Assembly (NCBI GenBank): GCA_947561715.1
Contig: OX387204.1
Coordinates: forward strand, 13,459,001 to 13,523,000
Direction of reading: 5' to 3'
DNA: 64,000 bases
Source: Ascidia mentula
Lineage: Eukaryota; Chordata; Ascidiacea; Phlebobranchia; Ascidiidae
Under the pieces are notes generated by a model that ran no database searches, was not told the origin of the DNA, and saw nothing but the letters and a program-made list of their open reading frames with translations. Position numbers and translations under genes: made by a program. Of this stretch, positions 20,001 through 52,625 are shown piece after piece. The stretch's first letter is position 1. Each line of letters opens with the position of its first letter.

Positions 20001-21034
20001 TGCTAAGTTAGTTTTTCCCCTAAAGTTGTTATCATTGTTGTTATTAATCTATATTTTGGAAACAGCTGGAAATTGTTTGTATGACCAAACTTAACACACG
20101 AAGGGTAAACAAATGTCCTATTCATTCAATGATTTACACGCTAAAATGGAGTTTTCACCAGTAAATTAGACAAGAACCATTCGCCAAGGTGTATGCTACC
20201 AGGTTATTCAAAGAATAATGTCGAAATTTTTGGTTTCTTTTGTGTTGTAACGTTTATGTATGTATGCGTTGTTATTTCCCTGTATGCAATCGAGATAGGA
20301 TTATAATTTTTGTTGGATAACAGAAATGTTACTTGACACAAAGGTTCGATTGTGGTCGTATAAATTGTTCGAATTTTCGACATGATGATGTACATATGGA
20401 GAGAATGTGAATTACATTGTGGAAAACATCTGTGATATCAAAATACTGGCCGCTTTTGTATGATTTCCTGACTTTGTGTGGTATGATTTGGATTAGCAAA
20501 GAGTGTCGGTCAAATGCTTATGCTGGCGTTTCTGGCTTTGTGATCTACGGTTAAATGCTGAAAGCTGTTTCTGCAGCCTGTCACCATAGAATTACATGCA
20601 ATCAACAACATTGTATTCTTGTACTTGCAAAAGCATAAACCGACACCAAGTAGAAATAAAGACTGTTCAAGTGAGAGAATAACCGCTGTTATATAAGTAG
20701 AACAGGCAATCACATTCCGATACAATTAGCGTTGTATTGTGTCACGGGGTGCAAAAGTAATACATAGAGGGCAGGATAAAATGACAATTTATGTATCACA
20801 AACCAAAAAATGGAAATTCCGTGCAATGTGCTGTCAAGAACAAATGCATGCCAAATTGAAAATAAGCATGTCGCCTACGTAAGTAGTCGTGGGAATATGT
20901 CTGATTGATTTTGTAACTACTACTTTCTTTTTTTTCGTTTTTATGCACATTAACTTAACAGGTAGTCATAATTTTCATTTGAAAAGAAAATTGAAATTTT
21001 AAAAGTATTAACTTTAAACGAATTGTGAAGGAAC
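17050..21034. repeat. Array unit E, 5' part deleted
   Basis: Block-duplicate of unit B with the identical 5' deletion junction. It contains one of only two copies of a 170-codon uninterrupted frame (19,295-19,807). Confidence 0.9.
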
Positions 21035-31049: not shown

Positions 31050-34000
31050 ATGAGTTCTGACGAGGCTAATTCGATGGAAGGTACGACTGTTAAGATACTT
31101 ATTACTGCCTAAAACATGTTTTGATATATAACAAAAAGTTACAAAAAGCATGAAGCATTTTAAACTTTGTTTTAAAATAATTTATGTCTAAGTAAGTTAT
31201 ATCTTTAAACAGGAAGGCCGAAGGTTTGCTGACTTTCATGTTTAAAGTATTTAAAAGTTTTTGCAGTCAAGTTAATTATATCCTTCATCACTTTTGCATT
31301 AGAAAATCCACAACCCGGATTTCCTCCCATAACGCCAGATGTGGAACCGGTAAAACTTTATTGTTTATATTCCTAATTGTTGTTTCTTACTTGTAGCATA
31401 TCGACCAAACAGGTCTTTGCATTTATATGGATTTTTTTCTTTTTCTTTGGTCAACGGCAAGATGTTTAAACTATTTATTTATTTTCTCTTTTCACCAACA
31501 AAAAGCAACCAAAGGCAATTTTAATTTCCGATGCGGATGGAAAACAAATAACCAAGGAAAACTTAAATGAACTGTTTCGCGATGTTAAAGATATGCCAGT
31601 GGCAATTTATTCCGTTGCTGGAGCATTTCGGAAAGGAAAATCATTCATACTCAATCTGTTCATAAAGTATTTGGAATCACTACAAGAATCCGCGGTATGT
31701 TTAAGTTTGTGCGTAGCGGGTAATCAATGTGGTTTTCATAGATTTAAACAAGAAAATGTTAAGGTAAACAACGTAAGTTGGATGGAAACAAAGGACGTGG
31801 ATGTGGGCGGTTTTAATTGGCGTGGTGGAATGGATCCCGACACTCAGGGTATATTAATCTACAGCAAATACTTTTTACTACAAAGTCAGAACGGGAAAAA
31901 GGTAAGAAAATATTATTCCAATGATGTCATCCCGATGTTGTTTAAATTTGTAAAATTCGGTAGGTTGCCGTTTTCTTGATGGATACGCAAGGGTTATTTG
32001 ACAATAAAACGTCGTTGGCTAAATGTACAGCTGTTTTTGCACTTAGTACACTGATAAGTTCTGTACAAATTTACAATGTATCCCAGCAAATACAAGAGGA
32101 CTATCTTCAGTATCTACAGGTGAGAAAAAATTGAAACATAGGCAAGTTAACCGTGTCACAAAATATGTTTAAGGTCTTCACGGATTACGGAAGAGCTTTA
32201 CAATCAGCAAGGATTGGTGACACTAGGAATAACAAGCCATTTCAGGTTATAACTGTGCGTTTAAACACGTACTTAGATTTAACATCAATTACGTGTTGTG
32301 TAGAGTTTATGTTTTTTGATTCGTGATTGGCAAGATCCAGATATTGGTTTTGGTCGTGAAGGGGGAGAAAAGGTTTTAAAAAAATGTCTTGATATTGATG
32401 AAACTGATGATGGCGGCTTGATTGATGTGAGACAATATATCAAGGACACTTTCGAAACTGTATTTTGCTTTTTATTACCATATCCCGGAAGTGCGATTGC
32501 AGTAAGATCAAAAGACAATAATCGAATTGTGTTTGAAGGTACATTGTACAAACGATTTTTTTTTAATTTTGCAAATTTCGATCTTGTTTTAGAAATGGAC
32601 AAACTGTTCAAAGGTTACTTGGATGACTTGGTACAAGATTTGTTTTCTAGAGAGAAAGTTGTTGTCAAAATGATTGGAGAAAAAACAGCTACAGGACAAA
32701 ATCTTGTTGATTATATATCTGTCCTAATTAAGGAAATCAGGTCCGGTAACATTTCATCGATCAAAACACTCTTTCAGGTCAGATATGAATTGTATACATT
32801 CCTAAAATCACGGCTAGTCTGCATATTATTGGAAGATTCGTTCCTCCTTTTCGTTATTTTTTATTATATACATATTTGCAACTATTTATTTGTTTTTCAG
32901 AACACAGCCGAACAAGTAGCAACAAACATTCTTGTCAGTTGTGATAATTTGTGCACGCAGAGACTAAAGAAACAAAGCGTAAATTTTGCTATGTATAAAA
33001 CGCTTTACGCACAAGCATTTAGCTTCAAATACACAATTTGCAGACAAATAAAACATACCTGAAGGAAGACGAGATGTTGTTGATCGAGGAAACAGTTCAA
33101 CGGGAGGTTTTGGATCTTTTTGAGTCCAGAGTTGTTTTGGGTGGCTCAAAATTTAAAAATACATTACGGAACGACCTGGATATTCAATTGAAAAGGCATT
33201 TCCTAGATTTCGTTCACGAAAACAGCATGAAACTTGTACTTTCTTTTGATAACCTAAAAAACGAATGAATATCAAGACTACTATTATGTTTTAGAAAGCT
33301 CTGAAGCGAACTTGCAAGAAGTATGTGGAGAAGTCAACCCAGCAATATGCAGAAACAATCAGACAAAAGGCATTTGAAATAATGCTTAAATATCAAAATT
33401 AGTGCTACATATACGGAAAAGATCATAAAACAGGTAAACAGAAACTATACTTACCACTACTTTTCAGATACCAAATGTGGAAGATTTTGATCTGAATGAA
33501 ATTAAAACTTATCACGAACAAGCCCTTAATGACATACACAACAAGTTCAACGAAGAACAAGGAGATATTGGCGATGAATTGAAAAACAAATATTTTAATC
33601 AACTTAACGCCCAAATCCAACAGCAATACAGGGATTTGACAAACGAGTACACACTTAAACAGGTAACTACAAGTTTGTTTACAAACCAGCTTACTACATA
33701 TTACAGGATTTCCCTATTTAATTGTAGATAAAAGATAGGCAACAAATGGGAAATATTGTTCAGGAATCTGTAGATTGTTTCAGAGAGAGACTGAACACAG
33801 AGGTTTGTCTTTCGCTTCATTTATATCCTTAAAATCTTGCGAAACATGTTTCTACAAATGAAATCGCCTTTAGGTTTGCAGATGTTTTTAGAATCCATGT
33901 AACGTATTTTCTGCCAGCATATGCTTTTGTTTATTGGGAACATTAGTTTGCCGCAAATCAAAACGGCCTTAAATGAAATTCGTATAAGCTTAAAATACTG

Positions 34001-37000
34001 TTTAAACAACATAATCTGTACCAAATGTTTGAAACAAAGTGTTTCTAATCACCGTCAGTTGGTTTATTTTTTAGAATTGTAAAAATTCGATTTTATCTAC
34101 GTAGTCATCATCAGTTTCTGCAAACAAAATGCATTAATAAACTCTGAAGCTACATGTACACAAAATACGCCAACAAATAAAAATAAAAATGAAAAATTTA
34201 GCAAAATGTACCCTACCACTGCATCTACACAACTGCAAACTTCACTGCAGAGCAAGGCCCTCTAACACCGTAAGCAGAAAGATAAGAAAGTGCGAAGAAC
34301 GTGATCACGCAAAATAATAACGACCCGCAGCACGAACGCACAACGAAATTTAAACATTAAAAACAATGGTAAAAGATACCACCGAAAACAACTTGAATTG
34401 CTTAGGCGCGTTCCTGGCGGTTGGTGCGCGTTTGCAAAATGGTGGCGCAGAGTCGTCTGTCGTTGCCTCCCAATTTGCCTTCGGGTAAATACTAATTTGA
34501 CCAATTTGTGAACATCTTGTTGAAAATTTATTTTTGGTTTGGCCAACGTATTGTTCATGACAGGTTGTGCACGTTAGATGTTGCAGCAGTTTATATTGTT
34601 TGCCTGCTTTTGTTGTTAATGTTGACGGTTCGTTAATGATGGATATGTGGTTATCATGGTGTTCGCACAATGCGCACCGTCCACAAGAGTAGCTTCCAGG
34701 AAGGTAAATAAACCAACTGACGGTGAGCAGAAACACTTTGTTTCAAATATTTCCTATCGGCTAATTGCTGTCGCGGATTTAAAGACAGTGAGGTTATAAT
34801 CTGACCACATTAGAGATCAAGTAGCAATAAATTGTTTTACTCCATGAAATCTACCTAACCAGCAGCACTTCTTCACGTGACACAAGTTAACCATCAATTC
34901 AATTTTAAATGTTACTAGAACAACTTTGTGTCCACGCTTCTGGTTTTAGTTCTAGTAACGTTTAAAATTACAGATCAAGTTTAATCTGTAACAATATAAA
35001 TTGCCACATAATGTTTTTTTGATTTTCTAATTTAGACCAAGAAAAAATGATGTAGTAAAATCTTTTTCCAGTCGAACAAGGATGGCGTAGATTTCCCAAA
35101 CATTGTGGAAGAAGCCAAACAGTTTGCTTTCGGTCAGTTTGACGACAAGTCTAAAAATTACGAGAAATCCTTTGTCAACTCGTTCCGAAAAAAACTGGCG
35201 AATGACCTAAGGATGGAAGAGGAACGTGACGAACGTTACGAAGACAAACGAGTAATCAGTCGTAGTAATAGTTTGTCACTGTCTAATACTTAACTAGTCT
35301 CGATAGTGAATCTCAGGTTAATGAAATTCCATGTGTAAACAATGTTTGAAAGTAATGATTTATACTGCAAATGGTAAAATTTTGGAAAAAAATTAGCCAT
35401 TTAGTCTAAATAGAGTCTAGGGTTTGTAAAGGTTTATGTACCATTGGAAAGTAAATATAGCATATTGCATCTGATATTAAATTTTCCTGTTTCAATTTAT
35501 TTATTTTTTGCTATAGGAAAAGTCACGGCAGTTGGCATTTAAAATTTTATCAGAAACTAAGCGACTTTACAGAGAAAAACAAATGGTAAGTTTCGCATAA
35601 AATTATAGAACGGAAATATATCATGAAACTTTTTGTATAGGAACTTCTACGTGGGTGTACATATTTAAACACACGAGAACAAGATGAGTTGCATGAAAAT
35701 TGTCGCCAATTTGCTGAAACCAGTGAAAGTGAAAAACTTTTGGAAACTTGTCTATCTCGCGATAATGAAAACGTCAAGTTGCAAATATTTGACTTTTATC
35801 ATGAGCAAAAACGCAACTTGGAATTTGATAACGAACGAAAAAAGGTTTGTTGTACATAAATTTTGATGACAAACATGTTTGTTTAGACTTTTGCTTGACT
35901 GTGTTTTAAATTCTACACTAAAAAGGAGGATCATCAACATCGTCGAAAGTTTTTTAACGTTTAGCAAAAGGTGTACAAATGTATTTCCATACTGGAGTCA
36001 AAAATGTTCGGACCAAGGTTGATTACCATGGTGTTGAACCATATGTGCACGATTTCTTAAGAACGATCACACGTTTCCATATGGACGAGCGTTAAACGAC
36101 TCAAAATATTGTTATGTTAAAAATTTTTGACAAATCCCGCAGAAAAGTCCATAAAATAAAAGTGATTAAACCTAATCATCAAAAACAAATTAAGGCAAGA
36201 CCACGTTCAGTTTGTTCACCGAGACTTGTTTTTCGTCACTCTATTGCAAAGCTGATTATCAAGCATTTACCTACTCTCTCTATCGCTTAGGAGCTTTCTT
36301 TTTCAACTGCCTTCTTTTCGTTGGGGGACTTTTTTTCGTTGTTCAATTGCAAAGCTGATTATCAAGCATTTACCTACCCTCTCTATCGCTTAGGAGCTTT
36401 CTTTTTCAACTGCCTTCTTTTCGTTGGGGGACTTTTTTTCGTTGTTCAATTGCAAAGCTGATTATCAAGCATTTACCTACTCTCTCTATCGCTTGGGAGC
36501 TTTCTTTTTCAACTGCCTTCTTTTCGTTGGGGGACTTTTTTTGTTGTTCAATTGCAAAGCTGATTATAAACCATGTACCTACTTTCTCTATCGCTTGGAA
36601 GCTTTCTTTTTTAAACGCTTTATTTTCTCTGTGTGACTTTTTTTGTTGTTCAATTGCAAAGCTGATTATAAAGCATGTACCTACCCTCTCTATCGCTGGG
36701 GAGCTTTCTTTTTCAACCGCCTTCTTTTTGTTGGGGGACTTTTTTTCGTTGTTCAATTGCAAAGCTGATTATCAAGCATTTACCTACTCTCTCTATCGCT
36801 TGGGAGCTTTCTTTTTCAACTGCCTTCTTTTCGTTGGGGGACTTTTTTTTGTTGTTCAATTGCAAAGCTGATTATAAACCATGTACCTACTTTCTCTATC
36901 GCTTGGAAGCTTTCTTTTTTAAACGCTTTATTTTCTCTGTGTGACTTTTTTTGTTGTTCAATTGCAAAGCTGATTATAAAGCATGCACCTACCCTCTCTA

Positions 37001-40000
37001 TCGCTGGGGAGCTTTCTTTTTCAACCGCCCTCTTTTCGCTGGGGGAAATTTTTGTTGTTGTTCAATTGCAAAGCTGATTATAAAGCATGTACCTACCCTC
37101 TCTATCGCTGGGGAGCTTTCTTTTTCAACCGCCCTCTTTTCGTTGGGGGACTTTTTTTTGTTGTTCAATTGCAAAGCTGATTATAAAGCATTTACCTACC
37201 CTCTCTATCGCTTAGGAGCTTTCTTTTTCAACTGCCTTTTTTTCTCTGTGGGACTTTTTTTTTGTTGTTCAATTGCAAAGCTGATTAAAAAGCATGTACC
37301 TACGCTCTTTTTTTTGCTTGGGAGCTTTCTTTTTCATCTGCCCTCTTTTTGCTAGGGGATTGTTTTAGTTGCTCTGTTGCAAAGCTAATTATAAAGCATG
37401 TACCTACCCTCTCTATCGCTTGGGAGCTTTCTTTTTCAACCGCGCTCTTTTCGTTGGGGGACGTTTTTTTGTTGTTCAATTGCAAAGCTGATTATAAACC
37501 ATGTACCTACTTTCTCTACCGCTTGGAAGCTTTCTTTTTTAAACGCTTTCTTTTCTCTGTGTGACTTTTTTTTGTTGTTCAATTGCAAAACTGATTATAA
37601 AGCATGTACCTACTTTCTCTATCGCTTGGGAGCTTTCTTTTTCAACCGCCCTCTTTTCGCTGGGGGACTTTTCTTTCGTTGTTCAATTGCAAAGCTGATT
37701 ATAAAGTCCGTACCTACTTTCTCTATCGCTTGGGAGCTTTCTTTTCAACCGCCCGCTTTTCTCTGTGGGACTTTTTTTGTTGTTGTTCAATTGCAAAGCT
37801 GATTATTAAGCATGTACCTTCCTCACTATCGCTTGGGAGCTTTCTTTTTCAACCGCCCTCTTTTCGCTGGGGGACTTTTCTTTCGTAGTTCAATTGCAAA
37901 TCTGATTAGAAAGCATGTATCCACCCTCTCTATCGCTTGGGAGCTTTCTTTTTCAATCGCCTTCTTTTCAATGTGGGACTCGTTTTGTTGTTGTTCAATT
38001 GCAAAGCTAATTATAAAGCATTTATACTTTCTCTATCTCTTGGGAGCTTTCTTTTTCAACCGCCCTCTTTTCTCTGGGGGACTTTTTTTTGTTCAATTGC
38101 AAAGCTGATTATAAAGCATGTACCTACGCCCTTTTTTTGATTGGGAGCTTTCTTTTTCATCTGCCCTCTTTTTGCTATGGGATTTTTTTAGTTGCTCTGT
38201 TGCAAAGCTGATTAAAAAGCATGTACCTACTTTCTCTATCTCTTGGGAGCTTTCTTTTTCAACCGCCCTCTTTTCTCTGTGGACGTTTTTTTGTTGCTCA
38301 ATTGCAAAGCTGATTAAAAAGCATGTACATACCCTCTCTATCGCTTGGGAGCTTTCTTTTTCAACCGCCCTCTTTTCGCTGGGGGACTTTTCCTTCGTTG
38401 TTCAATTGCAAAGCTGATAATAAAGCATGTATCTCAGCAAACCAACCAATAAACAAACTTTAACCCAATAAACAAGTCTGAAAAGTTGCGTGAAATGCTT
38501 CCAGTCAAGTCGAAAGTCAAACACCTGTGCCCACGTCCGCTCGAGATTAGAAAGAAGAGGACAATTAACAATTTTCCCATTCATAGCATCGTAATACAAC
38601 ACTGTGTCGAGGCAAGCAAAGTAATTGGCCAAAAATAATCAGGATATATCGGCACCTCATGCTTGGTGTAACTGAGCCATAGATATCATCGTTGTAATAA
38701 GGTTTTAATTTTTGCTATATGATCGTTTTGATGAAAGTGGGCTTAAACTTTTCCGACAATCACACACACAGAGCGAAAACAAACAAACAAACATCAGTTC
38801 GCTAATATAACCTCACACGGCCAAACATGCGCCAGGCTGCTCCGTGAGCAGTGAAGGCTTTAACTGAGCACTGACCGTTTATTACCAGTTTAGCATAATC
38901 ACTGAGCAACACAGCTGATCTCGACTGCTCACCCATTCTAATTAGTTACTAATGCGACAAGTTTCGCGCTATATACTACTGCGCCTTGATCATGTAGTTA
39001 TTGCTGCAGTGTACACATTGATTGTTGAAAACACTTGGTTGGGGCGTCCCCATTCGTAAAAACAATTTAAGAATTTTAGTAAAAATAAACCTTCAAATAG
39101 TTTGGTATACATTTTTGACAGAAAAACATGGAACTCCAATTGGAGCAGTTATTGCAAAAAAGCTTAAAACATTACCGAGATGCCATGACAAAGCAGGTAT
39201 GCTTTTATTAGTACCATTTTAGCAATACTAGCCAATCTTTTCATGGTTTAATTCTTGCTTTTACCAAATAGCTTCATGAGATATTTCGTAACGGTAATGA
39301 TGAGCAAGACTTCGACAAAGAGCACGAAACCCAATTACATAAAGTTGTAACGAATTATGAAACTGAAACCAGCACAATGAAAAAATTTCAAGACGAACGC
39401 ACTGAACATATTGAAAAACTAAAAACTATGATTATGGAAGAGCATCATCATAATTCACATGCATTTTCCAGAAATAAGGTAAATTGGAATAACGTTTTTT
39501 TAGAAATATAGAGTTTTCGTTTGGACTTTGTTTCATTTTTTTAGGAAAAAATAAAGGAATCCGTCTCTGCTTTGTCAAGTGATTGTCTAAATGTATACAT
39601 GCAGTACATGTCAAAGGTATAGTAATTCTATGCTGGAAGTAATAGCCTAAATGGTATTACATAGTGGTTTAATACGCTAAAGCCGCTGATATCCAGTCCT
39701 CAACTATGCACACAAACACGTTTTTAATGTAGAGATTGAAGCAAGCCGCCACTGACGAGTGGCTGGAAGACGTTCACACTCAAGCTAGTGATAGGGCCAT
39801 ATACCAATTTGATATAAATGACACAGGAAAATCTACACATTTCAAACAAGAGCAACGAAATGATCTTGTCGGGAAAATCGAAGATGCCAAGCAAGAATTT
39901 ATTGCAACCAATAAGAAAAAACAGGCATGTAGTGTAGTGTTCGTTTTTGTGTTGTTCAATTGTAGCACACAGTAAAGTATAACCTTTCTCTAGGAAGTTG

Positions 40001-43000
40001 CTAATGAGAGAGCAGCCAAACACATACTAGAAGCTCAACGCAGTTACCAGTCCAAAATGGCTGAGGTATTTACGATGGTTATTTCTTTAGACATACAAAT
40101 ATCGGCTTTATAACAAAACCGAATTCATAGTTACTGTATTTTTGTGTTGTTCCTTTAGATATGCTCCAGAGGTTACGTTGATTATCATACTCTTATAACG
40201 GAGCACGAAAGCATGCAGAGTGAAGCACTAAAAGAATTCAAAGAAAAGGCAAAGAGTCAAAGGTTATACCAATTTAAGGATTTTGAATCAAACTTAAACA
40301 ATGCAATAAAATCAGAATGGATAGCTCTTTCCTCTGCAAACAAAAAGTTTCAGGTAAATTCTTGAGTTTTTTTAACAATAAACAACAACCACACGATCTG
40401 ATTATAGAAAAAAGAAATACTCAAAATAAAATTGAAACAGGATGAGTTGTTGCATGAATTTTCCAGTCAACTATTCGAGGTAATTTCAAAACACCACAAT
40501 TAAACCAGGATGCGTTTCATATTTTTAAGTAATCGACAATTGAACACATTGCTTTGTTTTTGCAGAAAGCTACGCAAAACCTTGAAGAAAGTGAATTTAT
40601 GATGTTCACTGAGGAACTAAAGCATGAGGTCCTAAAAAAATTTGACCAAGTCGAAGCAAACGATTTACATGACGAGTTGCTAGAAGCGCGTAAAAACCTT
40701 GAGAGAGAACTTCGTTTTGAACATGAGTATCATGCAGTAAATGTATACAATAGGGCAAAGGTATAGAGGCATATCGCAAATCAAATTTATACTAACCTGA
40801 TTTATGGTTAACATTAACTTAGAAAGGCATGGAGCTGAAAGCTGAGAAACACGCAATTTCAGCGTTAAATATGTTTGAGGAAGCACTGGATTCTGTAAGC
40901 TGCATGGCTTGTGGTATTGATGTTGTAAATAACCAAGCTATGCATTTTAGGTTGCCAAACAATACTACGAGGAACAAGATTTACAAAAAAAAATTACGAC
41001 TGAGAAAGAAAGAGCGCTAAAACATTTTTTAGCCAATGCCGATGACGTACCACAACATATACTGCAAAACATCCACCAAAGTTTAAAAACAAACTTGTGC
41101 AAAGCTCAAGCCCAATACAAAAGCAAAAACTCCTCAAACAAAGTAATGATCAAGGACGTTTATAAATAAAATTACTAACATCAGATTTCGTATTTTTACA
41201 GGATTTTATTGAGCTATTTTGTGACAATGCAAAAAATGAAGCCATTCAAACTTTAAAAGAGGAACAGGATAAAGTAAATAATGAAGAAATAACTTCACAA
41301 ACAATTTTAACTATAAAAAAGATGTATTTTATTTATTATGCAGATGCTTGATGATCCATCATTCACTGTTGACATTGTGCACAAAAAGGCACCCGCTGCA
41401 ACAAACGAAGCACTTCGACTATACAAGAAAAAATTACAAGGGCACAAAGTCAAGTTTGACACATCCACGTACGAAAACGAAATTGACGACACTTTGCATA
41501 AACTAGAGGAAAGCTTTATACAAAATTTTGAGAAAAAACAGGTACGGTGTTGCAAAATGTAAATGATATTTGAACGCAAAGAAGCTACCATCACGGTACA
41601 CCTATTAAACCTTATCATGGGTGTAACAAAAATGACTATGCTACATTCGAAGGTTGGAAAGTCAATCCAACTTACATACTGTACCGAAATCATGTCACAC
41701 ACCAATGTCGTTTTCGTTCGCACTTGTTAAACGCGTCCTGTTCTGCTGGGCTAACGACAAGTGTGACCTAAGTGATTTTCACAAATTTGGCACTTACTTT
41801 GTACAGTTTAACCCTGACTTTTGAAAACGTACAGATTGAATTTCACCTGCTTTACCGTATCAGGACGACAAAGAACGACTTTGACGTTTATTTAAACATT
41901 GGTCCAGAAATATGTTAATGTTTATTTGAACAGGAAAGAAAAAGCTAAGATCTTATTCAAAGACATATTACAACAGATAATCCAAACACAAATGTGTCCT
42001 TGATCAGTTCAGTTGGTCTCAGTCACTAAAAAGAAGCACTAATGAGTGTACACGGTTACATTGCGCAGATATGGGTGTATGACATCCCACCAACATTATA
42101 CATAGCGATTACACCACACGTTTCTGATGAGCACCACTCTAGCTATCCCCTTAGAACAGGGTTTTCAAACTTTTTTGGCCCTGGACCCCCATTTGTGAAT
42201 TTGTTGTTTGGACCTCTTGTGTTACATTAATTTTTTCTTCAACCGGTTTAGCCCAGACGTGGATTATTGTCTTGCAATTCAAATTTTGTTTAAATTCTTT
42301 TTTTTATCATCAACTTTTCACTTAATTCAACTAGACAGTTTATATTTCTCTAAAACTTCACCTCAAATTTCACCTACAGCATACAAAAAATTCTTTGTTT
42401 ACTAATCAATCTACTTACACGTAAGTTGTTGTACACACAAAAATGGTTGATAAGATCTTCTTAACAACAAGTCTTTTTTTATAATTTACATTGAGTGCCT
42501 AGTGTGTGGACGTGTTTTACTTGGGCATAAAATTTTATTATTATAACGACATTTGTATGCTGTTACGTCTGAGAGTCTAGTGCTGTTATTTTTGTAATTG
42601 TCGCTGGTGTTGTCCAGTGAAAATTTTCATGCCAAGTAAAACACGTCCACACATTCGCCACTCAAAAATAAAATGAATTGTAGAAAATGAAAGTAGAATG
42701 CTGCTACAAGTAACTCTATTACGCCCCAAGTCAAATTACTTTTGCGTTAACAACACATGCTAGTATGTGAAAGAAATTATGCGACAATCTATATTATATG
42801 CTAAGATCGCGCAACAACCATTTACTCTTGCGAAAGAATCACTTTAATAACTATATGAAACAAAGCACTGTTTGAAATACATTTCTATCATTTATATGTA
42901 GAAACACCTGGAAGCAAAGGCCGAGCATCAAGGAGATTTTGCATACAACAATTTCCGAGAAAACTTCATTTCTGTAAGTTTTCATATGAAAAACATCAAC

Positions 43001-46000
43001 GTTGAAACTAACATTACGAACTATACGTTTAGGTTGACAAGACGTGTTACGACGAAAAAACCATGGAGAAAAATTTAAAAGGAGAGAAATCAAGAGTTTT
43101 AAACACTTTTTTAACAAATGTCAATGACATTCCCGCCCACATACTTAAAAACGTTGAAAATAAGTTAAACGAAAAGTTGGACAAAGCACAAAGCGAATTG
43201 AAAACTAAAAACTCTACTAACAAAGTATAAATTTGAAATAAGAAGTAAATACACAAAGAGTAAATAAAAAATCATTTTGTTCCATGTAGAAGGTGATTCA
43301 ACTTTTTTGTGAAAAAGCAAAAACTGAAGCAAAACAAAATTTAGACAAGGAACTGCAAAAAGTATGCTAATGTCATAAGATTGCATGTGTAGGTAGATAA
43401 GATGTTGAATCAAACAATATATTTTATGAGCAGATGCTTGTTGAACCGATCACAGACACGGAAGCACAGAAATTGGCATCAAGCAAAACAAATGAAGCTA
43501 TTAAAATGTATAAAACGAAGCTGCAAGAGTGTGAAATAGATTTTAACACCCGAGAATACGAAGAAGACGCCACTGCTATGTTTCGAAGTCTTGAAAACGA
43601 GTTCGTTAAGTTGGTAAACGAGAAGCAGGTAAGACATGTATTTACGCTAATAAAGTTCTAGTTAAGCAATTAATAAATCATAAGTTCTCATAGTACAAAT
43701 ACAATTGCCATGGCTGTTTAACCGACATACCTGAGTCTTTTTTTTTTCTTTAACAATATAGCATCATGGAATAGAATAAGACTATGACGAAGCAATTGTG
43801 TTTTAATATCATAAACTTTATCATAAATTTAATATTCATTCCATTTTTTGTAGAACGAACTGGAAAAAAGGGCAAAAGTGCTTGAAAATGCAGCATTTTC
43901 TATGTTTGAAGAAACCTTTGTTTGTGTAGGTTCTAATTTAAATTGTAAAATGTTCTACATCATCCAACCATGATTATTTACAGGTTAATCAATTATACAC
44001 CGATGAGGAGCTGGAATCACAATTGGAGAACGAAAAACAAAAGGTTCTAAATCATTTTCAATCCTCTGCTGATGACATACCGGATCACATACGTAGATCA
44101 CACCGACGTCATCTTGAGGAAAATTTGAAAAACGCTCAAACACAATACAGACAGAAAAACTCTGCAAACAAGGTATAGCCTACATGTGAAATATCCCAAA
44201 TTACAAAATGTGTATGCTTGTAGACAAATTTAAAATACTTTTAGGAGTTGATTCAACTCTTTTGCGAAAACGCAAGAAATGATGCTGTGCAAAATCTAAA
44301 AGCCGAACTGCGTAACGTACGAACAAGTTTGGTTACATTGCCTGAGATTAACTAATTTATCATTTCAAACTCGCCCAGGTCAATGATATGTCATCCAATT
44401 TAGAGACAATGCACGAAAATGCTTCTTCTGCTGCGAACAAAGTATTTCTAGCTTATAAAGCTGAACTACACCAATACACAACAAAATTTGACACTCTGTT
44501 GTATGAAAATCAGACACAAGAGTATTTACATATGCTGAAAAAACAACACATTCAGGAGATTGAAAAACAGCAGGTAAAATTGTATATGTTGCTCAAATCA
44601 ATAGTTCATGCATAAAACATGTATTTAGGGTTTTAAACTTTTGTTTAAATCTGTAGTATAGATTTTGGTTCTCCGATTTCTGGTAATTTATTCGTAACTA
44701 AACAATAGTACTTAAGTCCTGTATAGCAAGTAAACTGCTCTGTCTTATTGTAACAGCTTTCAAAACGTAGTGTGAAAGTAATCAAGTTTTGATTTGCAGA
44801 AAGATCTCAAAAAAAAAGCAGTCCGGCGGGGTGATGCTGCGCTAAGCATGTTCAAAGAAGTCTTTACTGCTGTAAGTTTCTACGTAGCTTATTCCTACGT
44901 TTTTTACTGTGTTGCCAAACTACATTAAGAATGATAAGCAATATTGCGTGGAGTACGAGATGGACGAAAAATTAAAACAAGAAAAGGATAGAGCTCTGAA
45001 GTATTTCTCAGCCATTGAAGACGAAATTCCGGAAGACATGCTCAAAGATGTTTACAAAACATTAGTGGAAAACTTGGACAAAGCCGAAATTGAATTTCAA
45101 CGCCAAAATATGTTGAATAAGGTAAGGAATTGGAAATGAATTTGCAAATACTTTAAAATAAAGTTTGTTTCGCACAGGCACAAATTAATCTACTCTGCGA
45201 CACCGCAAAAACTGAAGCAATTCTAAATCTAAACACGGAACTGCAAAAAGTATGTTGTCTTGTGTGACGTTGAGCACTACTTTATGAAACAAAAAATGCG
45301 TTTAATAAACGTTAATAGGTGCCCAGTAAAACAATCACAATGACAGAAGCAGAAAGGCTGGCCGACGAGAGGAGAGACGAGGCATTCCAAATGTACAAAA
45401 CAAAACTACAGCGGTACGAAATAAAATTTAACACGCAGGCATATGAAGAAGATGCTGGCAACATTCTGCAAAACCAGAAAAAAGACTTTGTAAAGGAACT
45501 AAAAGATAAGCAGGCAAGTTGACATTCATACCAGATACCTACTTTTTGCAAACAGTGTTGAAATACTTTGCCACTTACCTTTTTTCATTTATTTATTCCA
45601 GGATATTTTATCGTTAGCATACGGTGGCCCGTAAGGGCAACGCACGAAAAAGTTTAAATCGGTAAATATATTTTAAAATCGGCATATGCATTGCAATCGG
45701 AGTTTCAAGATTTACCGATAGGAGCTTCAATATTCGCTGATCGGAATTTCAAAATTCGCCGATCGGAGTTTCAGTATTCGCCGATCGGAGTTTTTATATT
45801 TTCTATTGGTGAGTATTTACGCATAAACACACATGCTTTGAAACTACTGTCATTTCGGCGAAATGATTTTTTTTCAACAAAATATGTTTCACGCACGAGT
45901 GAACACAACTTCAAAGGATTTATCAAAAAAAAACAATCGATTATATACACAAATTAAAACAAAATGACCAACCAAAAACATCAAATGTAACTTTAGCACT

Positions 46001-49000
46001 CATCCGTTGTCAATTCTGACTATTCGTTTTTTTCATATAGGGATATATTGAGGCAACAATACTTGCAAATTTAGATGCGAACATACACGAAGCAGATAGT
46101 GGTGCAGTCGCTTGATACAGGCGAACATTAGAAACCTTTCCGGGCCGTAGGATTTTTATAAATTTTGCACATAGCTTGCCTGGAGCATGCAGATGAACGT
46201 GGTATAAGTTAAAATCTCAACAGTTTTCAAGTTTCCCAGCGATATAACCTTTACCGCAAGCACTGAGTTGTGTATGAAACAAACCAATGAACGTGATTGA
46301 TTTTGCAATACCTATTGTTTCATTATCATAAAAATCAGTTATTGATGACAGAGGTTTACGCAGGTTAAGTCTCATCGTTGAAACTGTGTCCCCCACAGAA
46401 AAATATTTTTACCCACAATCAATTGACATTTTTTATTCGTTGTGTTCACTCGTGCGTGAAATATATTTCGTTGAAAAAAATCATTTTGCCGAAATGACAG
46501 TAGTTTCAAAGCATGTGTGTTTATGCGCAAATACTCACCAATAGAAAATATAAAAACTCCGATCGGCGAATATTGAAACTCCGATCGCAATACATTCGTC
46601 GATTTTAAAATATATTTACCGATTTAAACTTTTTCGTGCGTTTCCCTTACGGGCCACCGTATTAGCGGAATACGCATAAATATATTTTGAGACATATTTT
46701 TTCAGTTTTTTAAAAACGGATGAGGTGTCCTCATCACTTTTATTGTGAAGATGCCATACTGTATTGAAAGGGCTCAAAATACTTTTACAAACATGGTGAT
46801 TCTTGTTTGTTTTACAGACAAAATTTGAGAAAAAGGCAAAAAATCTTGCAAATTCAGCATTTTCTATGTTTGAAGAAACCTTCAATTGTGTAAGTTCCGA
46901 GTTAAAACATCAATAATTCTGACTTACCCATCCACTACCGTATTCAGGTTAATCAACACTTGTACACGGACGAAGAACTAAAATTGCAATTAATAAATGA
47001 AAAGCAAAAGGTCCTAAACAATTTTAAATCAGGTGCCGATGACGTACCCAATGATATAATTGAAATCCATCAACATGAATTGGAGCAAAAATTGGAACAA
47101 GCTCAAGACCAATACTTGAAGAAAAATTCTGCAAACAAGGTATGTGCAAATAGCTATCAACATTGTTACGGCGAAGTGTCATTGAAAACTGGACCTTATC
47201 CTATGAACTTTGGAAAAATCGTCATCCTTAAAATGGACCAACCCAAAAATACATTTTAAGGCCGCCACACTGTTTGGACTGTACTTAACACATTAGGTCT
47301 GTTAAAGTGAAACCGGTAGGGTTACATCACAACTACCTAGTCCAATTGGTCTTCTAAACCATTTGGATTATTATTAAGCCTACTTTGCAAATCCTTTATT
47401 GAAAAAAATTGCGACATACCTCAACAATACATTAGCTGTTCATACAACTTAGTTAAAATAATACTACAACTCATACCAAGGGAAAGTTCCGAAGAATGTT
47501 TTGTAGTCAAACTTTATTTTGATTACGTACACTGTTAATCAAAGATGGCATACACTAACCTACTTGTTAATACGTTTAGGATTTGGTTCAGATGTTTTGT
47601 GAAAGCGCAAAGAAGGAAGCCCTGCAAAATCTAAGAGATGAATTGGACAAAGTACGAACTCCTGTTGTTTCTTGTAGCTGGTATTTAATCATTAACATGT
47701 GCCATTTTTACTAGATTATTCGTGAAACGTCCAGTTTCGAGAAAATGCACGAAATGGCTTCTAATAAAATGAACAAAACACTTCAATCATACAAGGCCCA
47801 GTTGCGCCAATACAAAACAAAATTTGACCCGCTCTCATATGAAAATGATACATTTCGCGATTTGAATGTCTCAAAAGAAAACTTTCTTCAGGATATAGAA
47901 AAGAAGCAGGTAAGACGAACGTATGCCCTAACAACTGCACAAATAGATATGTTTTAAAGTAATATTGTAAGTCAGACCTAGATGCCTAACCTACAATATA
48001 AATTCGATAGTTTTGATCAAAAAACAAGGTAAAGCTCAAGCTTAAAATTTACGCGAGACTGTTTTGTTTTGGTTCGACGGTTGCTTGTTTGCAGCTTGCA
48101 AAACATACTTTTTATATGTTGGCCTGCAATAAATAATTGTTTTGTAGGCTATATTATTAATATTTTATATGTGGCAAACTAACAGCACCTTTTTAGATAT
48201 CAAATAGCAAAGCCTAATCTAATAATTGTATTAAGGGCCTACTAATTTTCTTTAAAAACATGCAAACAAAATGAATCCGCTTTTCCCCTGTGCATATTCG
48301 CGTGGTCTGATTTTTGGGGTGAAAGTTGTGGGGGCATATAATTACTGTTTGCATCGTGTTTAACAACGACAATATTCTTGCCCTTGTTCCACAACGCCAA
48401 ATTCATTTTACAAACCGCATGCCACTGTGCTAAAAGGAAAAAAAATAGTTCCTCGCACAATGCCAAGTGTTTGAAAACAATGACAAATTTACCCACGAGG
48501 TGGTTTTTAGTTGAATATTCAGATCAACTTGTGCTTTTGATATTAAATCAGATAAAAGCATTTTACAAGGGTGACCCTTACTACCCTTCCCCATACATAT
48601 GCCAATAATTTTTTTTCCGAGTTAAAGTAAAAAAAAATATGCAAAAAATAATAGTTGATAAATTTCCAATTGAACGAGTGAGACCCCTTAAAAGGTCCGG
48701 ACTTAGACCGCTGTACGACAGTGGGAAGGAAACGTGTCTCGTAATTTTACGAACTTCTACTTAGAATATCTTGTAAACGAAAACTTACAAAAAATTAACG
48801 CATATTTACAGAAAGACCTGAAAACAAAAGCTGAGAAACGTGCAGATATCACGTTGAGCATGTTCCAACTAGCGTTTTCTGATGTAAGTTGGAATATAGC
48901 CGACACAGTTTGTATTTAGCAGCCACCATAACTAATTTTAAAAAAAAAATGTTTTAAGACTGATAAGCAATACTACGAGGACCATGAAATGGACACGAAA

Positions 49001-50756
49001 ATAAAAACGGAAAGACAAAGAGCGTTAAATAGTTTTTTGCAAAATGACGATCAAATTCCCGAAGACGTACTTGGGATTATTCAAAATAAGCTGATGGAAA
49101 GTTTGGACAGAGCTCAAAGTGATATCAAATCGAAAAACTGTAGAAACAAAGTATGTTGAAACTAGCAATCAGATTTTTTAATTACAGTAAAATAACAATT
49201 AAACGATTTCTCCCGCAGGCGATAATTGACGTATTTTGTGAGAAGGCCAAATCTGAAGCAATTCGAAACTTTACAGAGGAATTGCAAAAAGTAAGCAACC
49301 ACTCTTTTTATTGCGATCACGTCATTATTTTCCCATCAAATTACTGGTTCTTCAAATGCGAACAGGTGCTTAGCGAACCAATCTCAAGTGGAGAGGCGAC
49401 CAATATTGCATCTAGAAAAGCAAGCAAGGAATTGGAAATGTATGAAACAAAACTGCTGCAGTGTGAAATTAAATTTCAAGGCCATTCATACAAAGCAGAC
49501 ACAAGAGCCAATTTAAAAAGCATTGAGGAGGACTTTCAAATGTCTATTAAGGATAAAGAGGTATGGCAGACAAAAATCGTTGTGTACATGCAGCCCATGC
49601 TTAAGTAAAAGTCATTGTCAAAAGCCAATTGTATCCAAGCATGCATCCTGTCGCGAGTTTTACAGTTTTCAGCCCTTTATTTTAATTCTATAATAACTTT
49701 ATTACGAAAAACAATAACGGAAAATCTTATTAAATACTTAATTCTCTTATTGCACTTCACTGTACCTGTATGTCAATTAAGTCCCAATAACATACAATTT
49801 ATGGTTCCAATTACAAAATGGTATCACAAACTCTATTGATCATGTATGACTGAAAAATTTACATCTAAACCATAGACTGCAGATGCTGGCCTGTTGTTAA
49901 AAACGCTTTGTGCGCCTATTGACCATGTATGACTATTGTTTTGTGTTACTGCAGAAACATATCAGCAACAAAATAACAAGTTTGCGAAAAGAGTACCGAA
50001 GCACCTGCGAAAGGGTAATCAGTCCGTTTTATTAAATCAGAAATATTTAAGCATTAACCGTGACTTGCACTCCGATGCATGTCTTTTGAATGGGCATCAG
50101 ATCAAACAACCTATCTGGTAACCAGTGCAGCAGCTAAAGATGAACAAAATACATTGAATTTTAGCGATAAAAGCAAAATTACAAAATGTATAAAATGATG
50201 TATTAATCCGATTTGACAAATTGAACTGAAACATTTTTCGAACATTTCCGACTTATAGATTCGTATCAGAGACTTTTTGGATGTAGGCATTCCTGGCCTA
50301 AAATATTTGGCTTTTATTTTATTTTTAATTATTTTACGAACGACGCCTCCCAACTCCATTATTTAATGGCACTTCGATGACCTAACAGATAACTGGAGTC
50401 CTACTGGAATATTTAAGTTTCTATGAAATACTTACTTTTGTTACGCTGTAACGCAAATATTACCCACTTACATTCTGCATCAGCTAACAATGGTTATTAG
50501 AACGTTTCCTGGTATTTTACGAGTAGCTCAATATAAAATTACCCGTCTTCTTACATTAATTTGATAGATGATTGGAGGCGTCACATTTGGAAAGGTAGCT
50601 GAACTTGAACGTTGGAATGAAGAGCTCAAGAATGGATACATCTCACAAATAAAAGAAATTAACGGGAATGAAACTGATATACGGAAGATCGAGGAGGTTC
50701 TTACAAAAGAACATGAAGAGTTAAAAGAAAAGTACAAACGGTGTTTAATCCTGTAA
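31050..50756 (+). CDS. Giant atlastin/GBP-like GTPase with ten-module helical stalk and CaaX end
   Basis: I assemble a 49-exon frame of about 2,234 codons. Head exons are 31050-31080, 31303-31349, 31506-31901, 31964-32119, 32174-32245, 32304-32538 and 32593-32777. The head (residues 1-374) shows a P-loop GAFRKGKS (about 65-72), WRGG with the switch Thr (131-139), DTQG (165-168) and RDW (241-243), as in atlastins; GBPs have DTEG instead. Ten four-exon cassettes follow (listed separately), then exons 49955-50014 and 50568-50756, ending CLIL, a prenylation-type CaaX box. No transmembrane hairpin is visible, although atlastins have one. Known members of the family hydrolyse GTP and self-assemble on membranes; a membrane-bound assembling GTPase role here is inference. 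From exon 2 all introns are phase 0 except one phase-1 intron at 32539-32592. That 54-nt intron, and a stretch at 31695-31793, could also be read through. The start is the first ATG, and a second lies at 31074. Confidence 0.85.
32901..33662 (+). repeat. GTPase stalk module 1 (exons 8-11)
   Basis: Coding cassette with a 32901-32978, b 33044-33235, c 33295-33369 and d 33468-33662 (26, 64, 25 and 65 codons). It occupies the position of the atlastin/GBP middle domain directly after the GTPase head, so it is probably the ancestral copy. Exon b begins with [11 protein letters not shown], matching [10 protein letters not shown] of later b exons. The c exon only keeps frame if the intron uses a GC donor at 33370 (AAG|GCATTT). 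Reading through instead meets TAG at 33400. Confidence 0.8.
34080..34745 (-). mobile_element. Penelope-like retroelement 3' relic (GIY-YIG endonuclease remnant)
   Basis: Minus-strand translation at 34736-34350 gives [30 protein letters not shown] and TRC. This is the Cys-rich lead plus GIY-YIG-type core typical of Penelope-like elements (family knowledge). The frame then shifts, with HHFANAHQ read in another frame near 34,430. No reverse transcriptase remains. It lies in the a-b intron of stalk module 2, antisense to the gene. Confidence 0.65.
34902..34968. repeat. Short imperfect palindrome
   Basis: Arms ATTTTAAATGTTACTAGAAC (34902-34921) and GTTCTAGTAACGTTTAAAAT (34949-34968) with a 27-bp loop. 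Probably a small foldback or MITE remnant in an intron. Confidence 0.7.
36241..38430. repeat. Intronic minisatellite, ~103 bp x ~22
   Basis: Twenty-two occurrences of TTGCAAAGCT at about 103-bp steps, each followed by a CTCTCTATCGCTTGGGAGC-like segment and a run of CTTTCTTTTTCAAC. The plus strand is pyrimidine-rich. Part shows a three-unit higher-order period of about 310 bp: units starting near 36449, 36549 and 36651 recur near 36757, 36859 and 36960. Because 103 is not a multiple of 3, long open frames arise without being genes. Confidence 0.95.
38431..39121. other. Intron remainder right of the minisatellite
   Basis: Non-coding, with a (CAAA)n-like stretch near 38,780 and no convincing exon. 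It ends at the acceptor TTTTTGACAG of exon 16. Confidence 0.6.
39122..39924 (+). repeat. GTPase stalk module 3 (exons 16-19)
   Basis: Cassette with a 39122-39196, b 39272-39478, c 39545-39616 and d 39733-39924 (25, 69, 24 and 64 codons). It is separated from module 2 by a 3.3-kb intron holding the minisatellite. Exon d ends AAACAG followed by GCATGT. A GC donor is needed because the nearby GT sites break phase 0 with the next exon. Confidence 0.8.
39994..40760 (+). repeat. GTPase stalk module 4 (exons 20-23)
   Basis: Cassette with a 39994-40065, b 40159-40353, c 40408-40479 and d 40566-40760 (24, 65, 24 and 65 codons). All boundaries are canonical GT-AG and phase 0, with introns of 54-93 bp. 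Confidence 0.85.
40823..41541 (+). repeat. GTPase stalk module 5 (exons 24-27)
   Basis: Cassette with a 40823-40894, b 40951-41142, c 41202-41273 and d 41344-41541 (24, 64, 24 and 66 codons). It shows the cassette signatures: a ALNMFEEAL, b EKERALKHF then DDVP, c FCDNAKNEA, d YKKKL then KFD and YEN. Being odd-numbered, it resembles modules 7 and 9. Confidence 0.88.
42161..42240. mobile_element. Possible hAT-type element end in an intron
   Basis: CAGGGTTTTCAAACTTTTTT followed by a GACCCCC stretch resembles the terminal sequence of many non-autonomous hAT elements. No matching second end was identified, so this is weak. Confidence 0.3.
42493..42663. mobile_element. 171-bp foldback/MITE
   Basis: Terminal arms of about 44 bp. 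GAGTGCCTAGTGTGTGGACG at the left is answered by the complement of CGTCCACACATTCGCCACTC at the right, and both continue into a GTTTTACTTGG block and AAAATTTT. It lies in the 1.36-kb intron between stalk modules 5 and 6. No clear target duplication beyond the palindrome. Confidence 0.7.
42902..43628 (+). repeat. GTPase stalk module 6 (exons 28-31)
   Basis: Cassette with a 42902-42973, b 43033-43224, c 43290-43361 and d 43434-43628 (24, 64, 24 and 65 codons). Signatures are b EKSRVLNTF with NDIP, c FCEKAKTEA with KELQK, and d [11 protein letters not shown] with YEEDA. It groups with modules 8 and 10. Confidence 0.88.
43854..44573 (+). repeat. GTPase stalk module 7 (exons 32-35)
   Basis: Cassette with a 43854-43925, b 43984-44172, c 44245-44316 and d 44379-44573 (24, 63, 24 and 65 codons). 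Exons a (AFSMFEETF) and b ([17 protein letters not shown]) are nearly the same as in module 9, which suggests recent duplication. Confidence 0.88.
44800..45513 (+). repeat. GTPase stalk module 8 (exons 36-39)
   Basis: Cassette with a 44800-44871, b 44930-45121, c 45178-45249 and d 45319-45513 (24, 64, 24 and 65 codons). Exon d ends CAG|GCAAGT, a consensus GC donor; the nearby GT would break the frame. The following intron carries the MITE. It pairs with module 10 (KDLK start in a, DKQY in b). Confidence 0.88.
45622..46659. mobile_element. 1.04-kb MITE with long terminal inverted repeats, TA target site
   Basis: Ends CGGTGGCCCGTAAGGG and its complement, flanked by TA on both sides (45620-45621 and 46660-46661). 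The inverted repeats run about 290 bp at the left and 230 bp at the right, near-identical over long stretches (for example TTTCTATTGGTGAGTATTT). The left arm has about five tandem copies of a 22-bp CGATCGGAGTTTCA motif; the right arm has two. No transposase frame. A TA duplication suits a Tc1/mariner-type source (inference). It lies in the intron between modules 8 and 9. Confidence 0.85.
46818..47909 (+). repeat. GTPase stalk module 9 (exons 40-43)
   Basis: Cassette with a 46818-46889, b 46948-47139, c 47580-47651 and d 47715-47909 (24, 64, 24 and 65 codons). It is the closest match to module 7. Its b-c intron is unusually long, at 440 bp. Confidence 0.88.
48812..49560 (+). repeat. GTPase stalk module 10 (exons 44-47)
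   Basis: Cassette with a 48812-48883, b 48959-49150, c 49219-49290 and d 49366-49560 (24, 64, 24 and 65 codons). It is the closest match to module 8. It is followed by a short a-like exon (49955-50014, 20 codons) and the terminal exon with the CaaX motif. Confidence 0.88.
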
Positions 50757-50760
50757 ATTT

Positions 50761-50766
50761 AATAAA
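50761..50766 (+). promoter_or_regulatory. Polyadenylation signal AATAAA of the giant GTPase gene
   Basis: Canonical hexamer 5 nt after the stop codon (TAA at 50754-50756). The 3' UTR would be very short. This supports 50,756 as the true end of the gene. Confidence 0.7.
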
Positions 50767-51689
50767 AGAAAATTGCTCTGTATGTAGCTATATTTGTGTA
50801 TGATTTGTAATCGCAATATCTTTAGTTATAAGCTGTAACTGCGTAGTTGTTGATTTTATTGTTGTGATTGTAATTCTTGTTATAATTCAAATCCTTTTAA
50901 CAATAAATGTATAAGTGCACTTCATGTTTATGTTTGCAACATAAATGTATGTATTAACCAAGTGGGAAAAGCGAGTCAAGTATGAATAGAGCCTTGTTAA
51001 CAATTGGTTTACATGCGCACAGCCATTACAACACGTGAAAGTGTCGCATGAATCAGTTTACTCGAGAACATTCGATGGATAAATCATTTGGGTCACCTCA
51101 TTGGATTATGTTTACACTTGGGTCAGAAGCTTTTTGCCGCGATTACTGTCAATTAACCAATTAATGAACAGCGTAACCACTGGGGCGTATACGTGGCAAA
51201 CTTTTAATACGACTGTGCAGTGCGCAAATAAATATAAATCGAAAGGAAATTCAATGAAACGTAAGTTCGGTAAATCAATAAAACAAAAGGAAAAGTGCGG
51301 TGTGTTGTGTGCAAATAAAATAGATCATAAAATTAAAATAACCTACACAGGAAACAAAAGAAAGCGTGAATAGAATGAATAAAAGACTGTCTTAATCCAT
51401 AAAACTTTATTTGTGTGTGTTCCAGCACTGACCTACGTGGTCGGTCAATATACGGTGGGCTTTTCAATAGGCTCTACGTTACTTTGGCGATCATAAATAT
51501 GTCTATTAGACGACTTTGCTGACCAAGCGGCCAAGTAAAGACTTCCACTATGTGGTGACTACACAATCACCGTCATCCGTTGGGCACCAAACTAGGTGCA
51601 ACCTTACGGAGAAAACAAGGTGGAAACACTATGGCCAAGCAATGCTCAACCAATAGTGCCGTCAGGCCTCGTGTCACAATAATCATATG
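50767..51689. other. Intergenic, nothing recognised
   Basis: AT-rich spacer after the GTPase gene. A 90-codon frame at 51101-51373 (+) has no recognisable domain and no supporting signals. I see no RNA gene. Confidence 0.5.
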
Positions 51690-52625
51690 ATAAGCAAACC
51701 AAACGGTGTCACATGCACTTTCCTAGTAAAACTAGCAGCACCAGTCATCTCTTCAATTCTTTGCATGCTGCATTCAAACAGCAAGTTACCCAAGTTGCCT
51801 TAAACTGTCGCAAATATCACCATTGTTCAAGGGAGGGGACCAAAAAATGTAGACCGATATCGCTAATACCAGTTTTTGCTAAAATTGTGTGCAATTTTCC
51901 TGGATTTATCAATGGCATTTGATACCTTCAACCACAAAATCATTCTGCAAAAATTAGAGTTTTACGGATTCCGGGAAAAAATTAAAAGCTTTTTTGAAAA
52001 CTATCTCACTGGCAGGCAACAATACACTAAAATTTACAATTTCCACTCCAATGTCTGTGACGTGGAATGCGGCGTTCCCCAAGGATCTTCTCTAGGACCC
52101 CTTCTGCTTCTCATTTATGTAAATGATTCGCCTTGCGCCTCCTCATTCTGCACAAGATTATTCGCAGATGACACATGTCTGATCATGTCATGCAAAAATG
52201 TAAGGGATTTAGAAAAGGTTGCAAATATCGAACGTGATATTCCAACAAACTAACAGTTAGCAGCAAAAAAAACATTCATGCTATTCGCAAACAGCAAAAA
52301 GACAAACAACTTTGCATATACCCTTTAAATCAATGACACCACACTCGAGCAAGTTACGACTACGAAGTGCATTGGGTACATATTGACGATACACTGTCAC
52401 GGGCCCCACATGTCAACTCAATCCGCAAAAAATAGCGAAATTGTGAAAAAACACGATGTCAAACCAACCATCAATATTTTCTCCCACGTGTGTTCACTCA
52501 ACTAGCCAAAAAAAAACTATACAATACCAAGGTGCAGAAATATGGAACAACATTCCGCAAAACATTAAAACCTTCAGTTTGAAAGGATTTCTTGAAAGCA
52601 CTGAGTTTACACCTACTTGACTTGC
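51690..52625 (+). mobile_element. Non-LTR retrotransposon (CR1/L2-like) reverse-transcriptase fragment
   Basis: Plus-strand pieces in order: CRPISLIPVFAKI near 51,846; FLDLSMAFDT (RT domain, catalytic-region start) near 51,900; GVPQGSSLGPLLLLIY near 52,070; LFADDT near 52,160; and a C-terminal EIWNNIPQNIKTFS near 52,545. These are family-typical motifs in the right order. Stops, frame changes and a deletion between the first two pieces show it is dead. Confidence 0.85.

Follow-up and report, generated by a model that had tools for sequence, protein, structure and literature searches.

A predicted giant GTPase of atlastin lineage in the ascidian Ascidia mentula, with a stalk of about twenty repeated units

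A fifty-exon gene and its GTPase head

We describe here a predicted gene, termed the giant gene, in a 64,000-nucleotide stretch of the genome of the ascidian Ascidia mentula (assembly GCA_947561715.1, contig OX387204.1, positions 13,459,001 to 13,523,000 of the forward strand; this whole stretch is called the window). Its exon chain runs on the plus strand from an ATG at 31050 to a TAA at 50754-50756, is stop-free and in phase, and comprises 50 exons that make up 6,636 nt and encode 2,211 amino acids (Table 1). Splice donors are GT in 46 of 49 introns and GC in three (exons 11, 20 and 40), acceptors are AG throughout (49/49), and all introns from the one between exons 8 and 9 to the one between exons 49 and 50 are in phase 0. 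The protein consists of an atlastin-type GTPase head, twenty units of about 89 residues and a divergent 21st unit (exons 49-50). The elementary repeat is a phase-0 exon pair of about 24 and about 64 codons; the first exon of the pair (A) measures 72 nt in 15 of 20 cases and 69-78 nt in the others, and the second (B) 189-198 nt in 17 of 20, with 180, 204 and 207 nt in the rest. Since the pair is in phase 0, whole pairs can be added without a change of frame. A first-pass annotation of the same DNA had read a complete frame of 49 exons with ten four-exon modules of about 177 residues. The open, in-phase frame and the ten cassettes stand, with 50 exons, and the repeat proves to be the shorter two-exon unit.

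The head places the protein among the atlastins, as had been claimed from the first reading. Pfam assigns residues 41-312 to the GBP N-terminal domain (E 4.6e-53), and the P-loop, DTQG and RD motifs of an atlastin-type G domain are all found. In the PDB, the head, mostly together with unit 1, finds 13 distinct atlastin sequences of solved structure at E 1.6e-65 to 3.8e-73; one RNF112 chain follows at 1.8e-25, and the GBPs come in at about 2e-4 to 8e-4. The G domain is thus nearer to atlastins (3.8e-73) than to GBPs (GBP5, 2.4e-4). The GBP C-terminal domain PF02841 gave no row at E up to 1 with the protein searched as two halves, a result that separates the families poorly, as many atlastins carry this domain. 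The arginine of the P-loop is, we assume, the equivalent of R77 of human ATL1. Loss of R77 in ATL1 is reported to stop dimerisation (PMC7830690). With one GBP-domain stretch and 50 exons, the protein does not have the largely single-exon, multi-GTPase layout of GVIN/VLIG, and the distinction drawn in the first-pass annotation from the vertebrate very large inducible GTPases holds.

Table 1. Features of the giant gene in the window
Feature	Position	Strand	Basis
Exons 1-8: N-terminus, atlastin-type GTPase domain and linker	31050..32777	+	model; Pfam GBP N-terminal domain, solved-atlastin matches
Cassette 1, exons 9-12: unit 1 (orthologous atlastin middle domain, by sequence), unit 2	32901..33662	+	PDB alignments; Phallusia P0017 register for both units
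Cassette 2, exons 13-16: units 3, 4	33728..35844	+	model; Phallusia P0017 alignment
Cassette 3, exons 17-20: units 5, 6	39122..39924	+	model; Phallusia P0017 alignment; exon 20 GC donor
Cassette 4, exons 21-24: units 7, 8	39994..40760	+	model; unit 7 against atlastin middle-domain profile, E 2.3e-6
Cassette 5, exons 25-28: units 9, 10	40823..41541	+	model; cassette comparison; counterparts in C72 paralogs
Cassette 6, exons 29-32: units 11, 12	42902..43628	+	model; cassette comparison
Cassette 7, exons 33-36: units 13, 14	43854..44573	+	model; cassette comparison
Cassette 8, exons 37-40: units 15, 16	44800..45513	+	model; cassette comparison; exon 40 GC donor
Cassette 9, exons 41-44: units 17, 18	46818..47909	+	model; cassette comparison
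Cassette 10, exons 45-48: units 19, 20	48812..49560	+	model; cassette comparison
Exons 49-50: divergent 21st unit, basic tail, stop	49955..50756	+	model; similar C72 paralog exons, E 0.002
CaaX box CLIL, predicted prenylation signal	50742..50753	+	model; chance about 0.0013 from stalk composition
AATAAA polyadenylation signal	50761..50766; second 50902-50907	+	first signal just past the stop codon

Origin and growth of the stalk units

In atlastins, a three-helix-bundle middle domain directly follows the G domain, and the same order is found here. Alignments to those PDB atlastin constructs which include this domain stop at query residues 439-447, and unit 1 ends at residue 441. Judged by sequence, unit 1 is the atlastin middle domain, on which the first module had already been placed. 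By our reading of its locus, the ordinary atlastin of this genome starts its middle domain with a phase-0 exon of exactly 24 codons, and has one extra intron there without counterpart in the giant's B exon.

Profile comparisons carry the likeness further along the stalk. Among 66 pairs compared, the atlastin middle domain was matched by unit 1 (E 2e-5), unit 7 (2.3e-6) and unit 6 (1e-4), by units 2-4 at 0.0008-0.0024 and by the AB units at 0.012; nothing came up for units 5 and 8, for the CD units or for the terminal one (AB and CD designate the paired units of the later cassettes). A profile of 33 B exons, eight of them from the giant gene, six from a Phallusia relative and 19 from paralogs (a subset hand-picked from the candidates of a length scan; see below), scored 27 of 28 atlastin middle domains higher than any of 2,460 shuffles, along with 6/6 AB, 1/6 CD and 0/1 terminal exons. 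A stricter profile of 27 exons, from which every first unit had been removed, was run against 3,096 decoys including reversed stalks: 23 of 28 middle domains, 5/6 AB, 1/6 CD and 0/1 terminal exons exceeded every decoy, and 26 of 28 middle domains exceeded the 99th decoy percentile. The sole CD unit to pass is unit 10, and it is 29-40% identical to CD units 12-20, a resemblance through which these can be tied to the middle domain. Neither the profile comparisons nor either decoy-controlled profile supported the terminal 21st unit as a middle-domain copy. Most stalk units are, by these profiles, homologous to the middle domain.

We regard it as highly improbable that the later units are instead an unrelated coiled coil, of apparent regularity and without descent from the middle domain. 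CD units 12-20 do lack a direct sequence link to that domain, but five of six AB units and unit 10 possess one, unit 10 resembles the other CD units to the degree given above, and the exon-pair grammar agrees with the helix-loop-helix predicted for exon D of unit 12, which, modelled alone, forms a helix at 8-31, a loop and a helix at 40-64 (mean predicted local distance difference test score, pLDDT, 90). Over the stalk, no Pfam family rose above its cut-off. The spectrin-repeat family gave no row at E up to 1; the period of spectrin repeats is about 106 residues, as against about 89 here. A protein search with the stalk alone retrieved 0 of 7,990 scored candidates at E 1e-3, candidate lengths being restricted to 0.55-1.75 times that of the query.

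Comparison of the stalk with itself yields 569 high-scoring windows at an offset of 177 residues and 424 at 354, with 11 at most in five shuffles. Cassettes 5-10 alone are clearly alike (28-57% amino acid identity), units 1-8 sharing 23% or less with each other. Cassettes 7 and 9 are 57% identical and cassettes 6, 8 and 10 are 43-46% identical among themselves, which, together with the strong 354-residue period, suggests copying in two-cassette blocks. Within cassettes 5-10, the proportion of nonsynonymous differences (pN) is lower than that of synonymous ones (pS) in 15 of 15 pairs, and the ratio of the corresponding rates (dN/dS) ranges from 0.16 to 0.46 across the 14 pairs without saturation. 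From these comparisons, cassettes 5-10 are read as later copies under purifying selection. The stalk has grown in at least two phases, with old units common to relatives and a subsequent expansion of cassettes 5-10 in the giant gene. Growth by duplication of its own stalk, as first proposed, is thus retained, the duplicated unit being half of the module stated then, a single three-helix bundle of two exons.

Two further explanations were set aside: a pseudogene, because every exon is open and dN/dS stays below 0.5, and a collapsed or duplicated assembly, the cassettes being no more than 28-57% identical.

Relatives in the same genome and in other animals

A search of the genome (195.8 Mb, 79 contigs) with the GBP domain found at least 103 places covering the DTQG exon, which are search places and not proven genes, in 21 clusters. 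Among them are the giant gene and the ordinary atlastin, which is kept in this genome with its transmembrane (TM) region matched. About 0.5 Mb upstream of the giant gene, at C72:12.97-13.02 Mb, lie four heads followed by exons colinear with units 1-10; some of these exons were not recovered, and genes 1 and 4 were examined in detail. The C72 paralogs carry about 10 units, and exons resembling the giant's exons 49-50 (E 0.002) occur in gene 4. In gene 2, stalk exons form a block of 1,610 bp that is present in 4.0 tandem copies of 99% identity (L012-L013, joined cluster coordinates 16131-22576), its end falling one A exon out of the pair register. Judging by this block, cassette copying may be current, the alternative being an artefact of assembly.

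Four distant paralog loci were scanned (L018, L020, L021 and L022, with L019 left out), and three share the exon grammar, with clear phase-0 runs of 72/195 nt at L020 and L022 and a looser one at L018. No such run followed the head at L021. Exact lengths of 72 or 195 nt were found for 5/5 scan candidates at L020, 9/10 at L022, 2/9 at L018 and 0/2 at L021, in scans that favour the pattern by pre-selecting exons of 60-87 and 174-216 nt with a charged composition. The detailed scans of C72 genes 1 and 4 were pre-selected in the same way.

The closest named relative over head and stalk is a protein of Phallusia mammillata called atlastin-2 (UniRef A0A6F9D7B1; P0017 here), whose 966 residues hold, in register and in a single protein, the head (54% identity) and units 1-6 (19-35%). 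This protein and the C72 paralogs bear on whether the exon chain has wrongly joined two or more neighbouring genes, one for the head and units 1-10 and a separate one for a helical repeat. Introns of 3,277, 1,360 and 1,304 bp follow exons 16, 28 and 40, and an in-frame ATG lies close to the start of exon 17, as would suit such a division of the chain, which was drawn from genomic sequence by eye and script. The division is nevertheless very unlikely, in our view: frame and phase 0 are preserved along the whole chain, an intron of 62 bp in C72 gene 1, and of about 0.8 kb in gene 4, joins the equivalents of units 4 and 5, units 4-6 lie within the single Phallusia protein, and a pair resembling the terminal exons follows unit 10 in a paralog.

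GB1 heads with long tails exist in other animals as well. The tails are repetitive in Clavelina (P0012, P0004) and Zophobas (P0005), with periods of about 160 and 68 residues, respectively, compared with 177 in the giant, and fusions to HSP70 occur in springtails (Folsomia) and a mayfly. In a tree of 31 heads, none of them from a GBP, in which branches are long and bootstrap values unsettled, the giant groups with P0017 (support 100/99); most relations among the long-tailed proteins are not resolved, and those of other animals form no supported clade with the giant. NCBIfam assigned 0 families to each of P0017, P0012 and P0005. The initial statement that no described protein has this plan does not hold as worded, given the colinear Phallusia protein, the colinear paralogs of the same genome and these long-tailed GB1 proteins. 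Among the titles and abstract openings retrieved from open-licence PMC full text, none describes a multi-bundle atlastin or such an ascidian family.

Some further observations concern these proteins and the surroundings of the gene. GB1 heads with HSP70 or actin-like domain tags are found in P0006-P0008, P0010, P0011, P0014 and P0015 (springtails, mayfly and others); P0013 bears the GTPase tag alone, its HSP70-like end being our own reading of the sequence, and Clavelina P0004 combines a GB1 head with a protein kinase domain. Intron 16 of the giant gene holds a minisatellite (103 bp x 21, window 36243-38431), and intron 40 an element that resembles a DNA transposon or a miniature inverted-repeat transposable element (MITE) and carries long arms in inverted orientation (96% over 150 bp and 93% over 90 bp, window 45619-46662). 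Upstream of the gene, window 1-30343 is occupied by tandem units of about 4 kb; identity is 93-98% for most of them and 84-92% for the final, partial copies. This array contains six open reading frames of at least 110 amino acids. Downstream, the translation of window 51900-52200 contains an open fragment resembling reverse transcriptase, which we take to be of the long interspersed nuclear element (LINE) type, and an 84-bp repeat at window 63351-63814 presumably encodes C2H2 zinc fingers on the minus strand. Rfam gave no match in the window at gathering score.

Anchoring, shape and possible role

Hydropathy over 19 residues finds no TM-like segment in the stalk (best value 0.80, against 2.19 in the control atlastin P0070), neither the two TM segments of atlastins nor the TM anchor of Sey1p/RHD3. 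Its last four residues, CLIL, form a CaaX box that was overlooked in the first-pass annotation and for which the probability of chance occurrence at that place is about 0.0013 by stalk composition. A final leucine in such a box is typical of geranylgeranylation. The box matches a trait of some GBPs, since human GBP1, 2 and 5 are reported as CaaX-bearing and isoprenylated (PMC9005921).

The shape of the stalk was approached through an AlphaFold2 model of Phallusia P0017, which scores well over much of the head and over unit 1, and poorly in the stalk (block pLDDT 39-80; predicted template modelling score, pTM, 0.50). In units 1 and 4-6, helices of about 22 residues alternate with helices of 55-59 residues that cross the unit junctions, a predicted pattern that resembles a spectrin-like rod. 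If extended, 21 units would measure very roughly 80-95 nm, from helix length at 0.15 nm per residue. A structure search with the whole Phallusia model matched Sey1p at a root-mean-square deviation (rmsd) of 33; the search as a whole was dominated by the head (residues 13-483) and is little informative on the stalk by itself.

Several known systems share part of this design. Sey1p/RHD3 proteins are TM-anchored, with a stalk shorter than that of the giant; like the giant, they have an atlastin-type GTPase, and their lengthened helical stalk may resemble that of the giant, with no sequence link seen between the two. Atlastins (ATL1-3 and Drosophila atlastin) are like the giant, by sequence, in the GTPase head and the first three-helix bundle, and the ordinary atlastin of this genome has its 24-codon exon at the matching place. 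They are described as having a single bundle, a pair of TM segments and an amphipathic helix (PMC12312388), whereas the giant carries about 20 units and a CaaX box and lacks any TM-like segment. In the case of GBPs, two three-helix bundles share a helix, and hGBP1/2/5 are anchored through CaaX (PMC9005921); bundles and CaaX recall the giant, but in the G domain GBPs stand much further from it (E about 2e-4, against 4e-73 for atlastins), and they have two bundles plus a GTPase effector domain (GED). Human GVIN1, with 1,808 amino acids and two large GTPase domains, is reported to coat bacteria (PMC11974893). The very large inducible GTPases to which it belongs are likewise giants of the dynamin superfamily, in contrast to the single GTPase domain and 50 exons found here. 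Head, bundle and CaaX anchoring are each already known.

We think it probable that the locus is a single gene for an atlastin-lineage GTPase, TM-less and CaaX-ended, whose stalk of about 20 bundles would form a GBP-like lipid-anchored rod, with cell defence as its likeliest role. The ancestral atlastin-lineage GTPase would have lost its two transmembrane segments, and its single three-helix-bundle middle domain would have become a chain of about 20 bundles by copying of a phase-0 exon pair, one exon encoding helix A and the other helices B and C. Older units, up to about 10, would be common to relatives, and cassettes 5-10 would have been added later, partly as two-cassette blocks. By analogy with atlastins and GBPs, the heads may dimerise in a GTP-dependent manner at one end of the rod, the prenylated C-terminus predicted from the CaaX box lying at the opposite end, and the outcome would be a membrane-anchored long-reach tether or coat. 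Such a rod is probably defensive or tethering, and cell-autonomous defence appears the most likely role, favoured by the size and clustering of the family, the GBP-like anchoring, the GVIN1 coats on bacteria and the antiviral, TM-less BmAtlastin-n of the silkworm (770 amino acids; PMC4926086).

The main rival keeps this architecture and reads the protein not as a defence factor but as a Sey1p/RHD3-like one, able to fuse membranes homotypically or to tether organelles over a long reach. Fusion by Sey1p is reported to depend on stalk length (PMC4980331). We judge this rival unlikely: the giant has no TM-like segment by hydropathy and a different, CaaX end, the rmsd of the Sey1p match is 33, at least 103 head places in 21 clusters would be unusual for a housekeeping fusogen, and an ordinary atlastin with its TM region is still present in the genome.

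A number of observations weigh against the preferred reading of a single gene for a lipid-anchored rod. In the gene model, GC donors number three and that of exon 11 is weak. The CD units other than unit 10 have no direct link to the middle domain (1/6 above decoys, the CD profile not being significant). AlphaFold2 draws residues 488-635 of P0017 (units 2-4) as a single 148-residue helix and its end as a single 80-residue helix, so a rod of bundles is not borne out in units 2-3 or 7. Phallusia P0017 itself ends within its eighth unit and has no CaaX box, and at the ends of the four C72 genes a scan for CaaX-ended open stretches of at least 40 codons came back empty, so that the anchor may be peculiar to the giant gene.

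More tentatively, the ascidian atlastin lineage, and not the GBP lineage, may have given rise to a large defence family of lipid-anchored rods, whose length would be tuned from about 10 to 21 units by in-frame duplication of the two-exon, three-helix-bundle cassette. These rods would tether or coat the membranes of pathogens or vacuoles at long reach, and new lengths would still be arising. Whether atlastins assumed GBP-like defence in invertebrates is a question posed in print (PMC9005921), and the giant gene bears on it. Its structure suggests the evolutionary rebuilding of a membrane-fusing GTPase, in which the bundle specified by one symmetric exon pair is multiplied into a rod and a lipid tail replaces the membrane anchor, converging on the design of GBPs. 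The family would also offer a natural length series, from about 10 to 21 units, for relating stalk length to reach in dynamin-superfamily machines.
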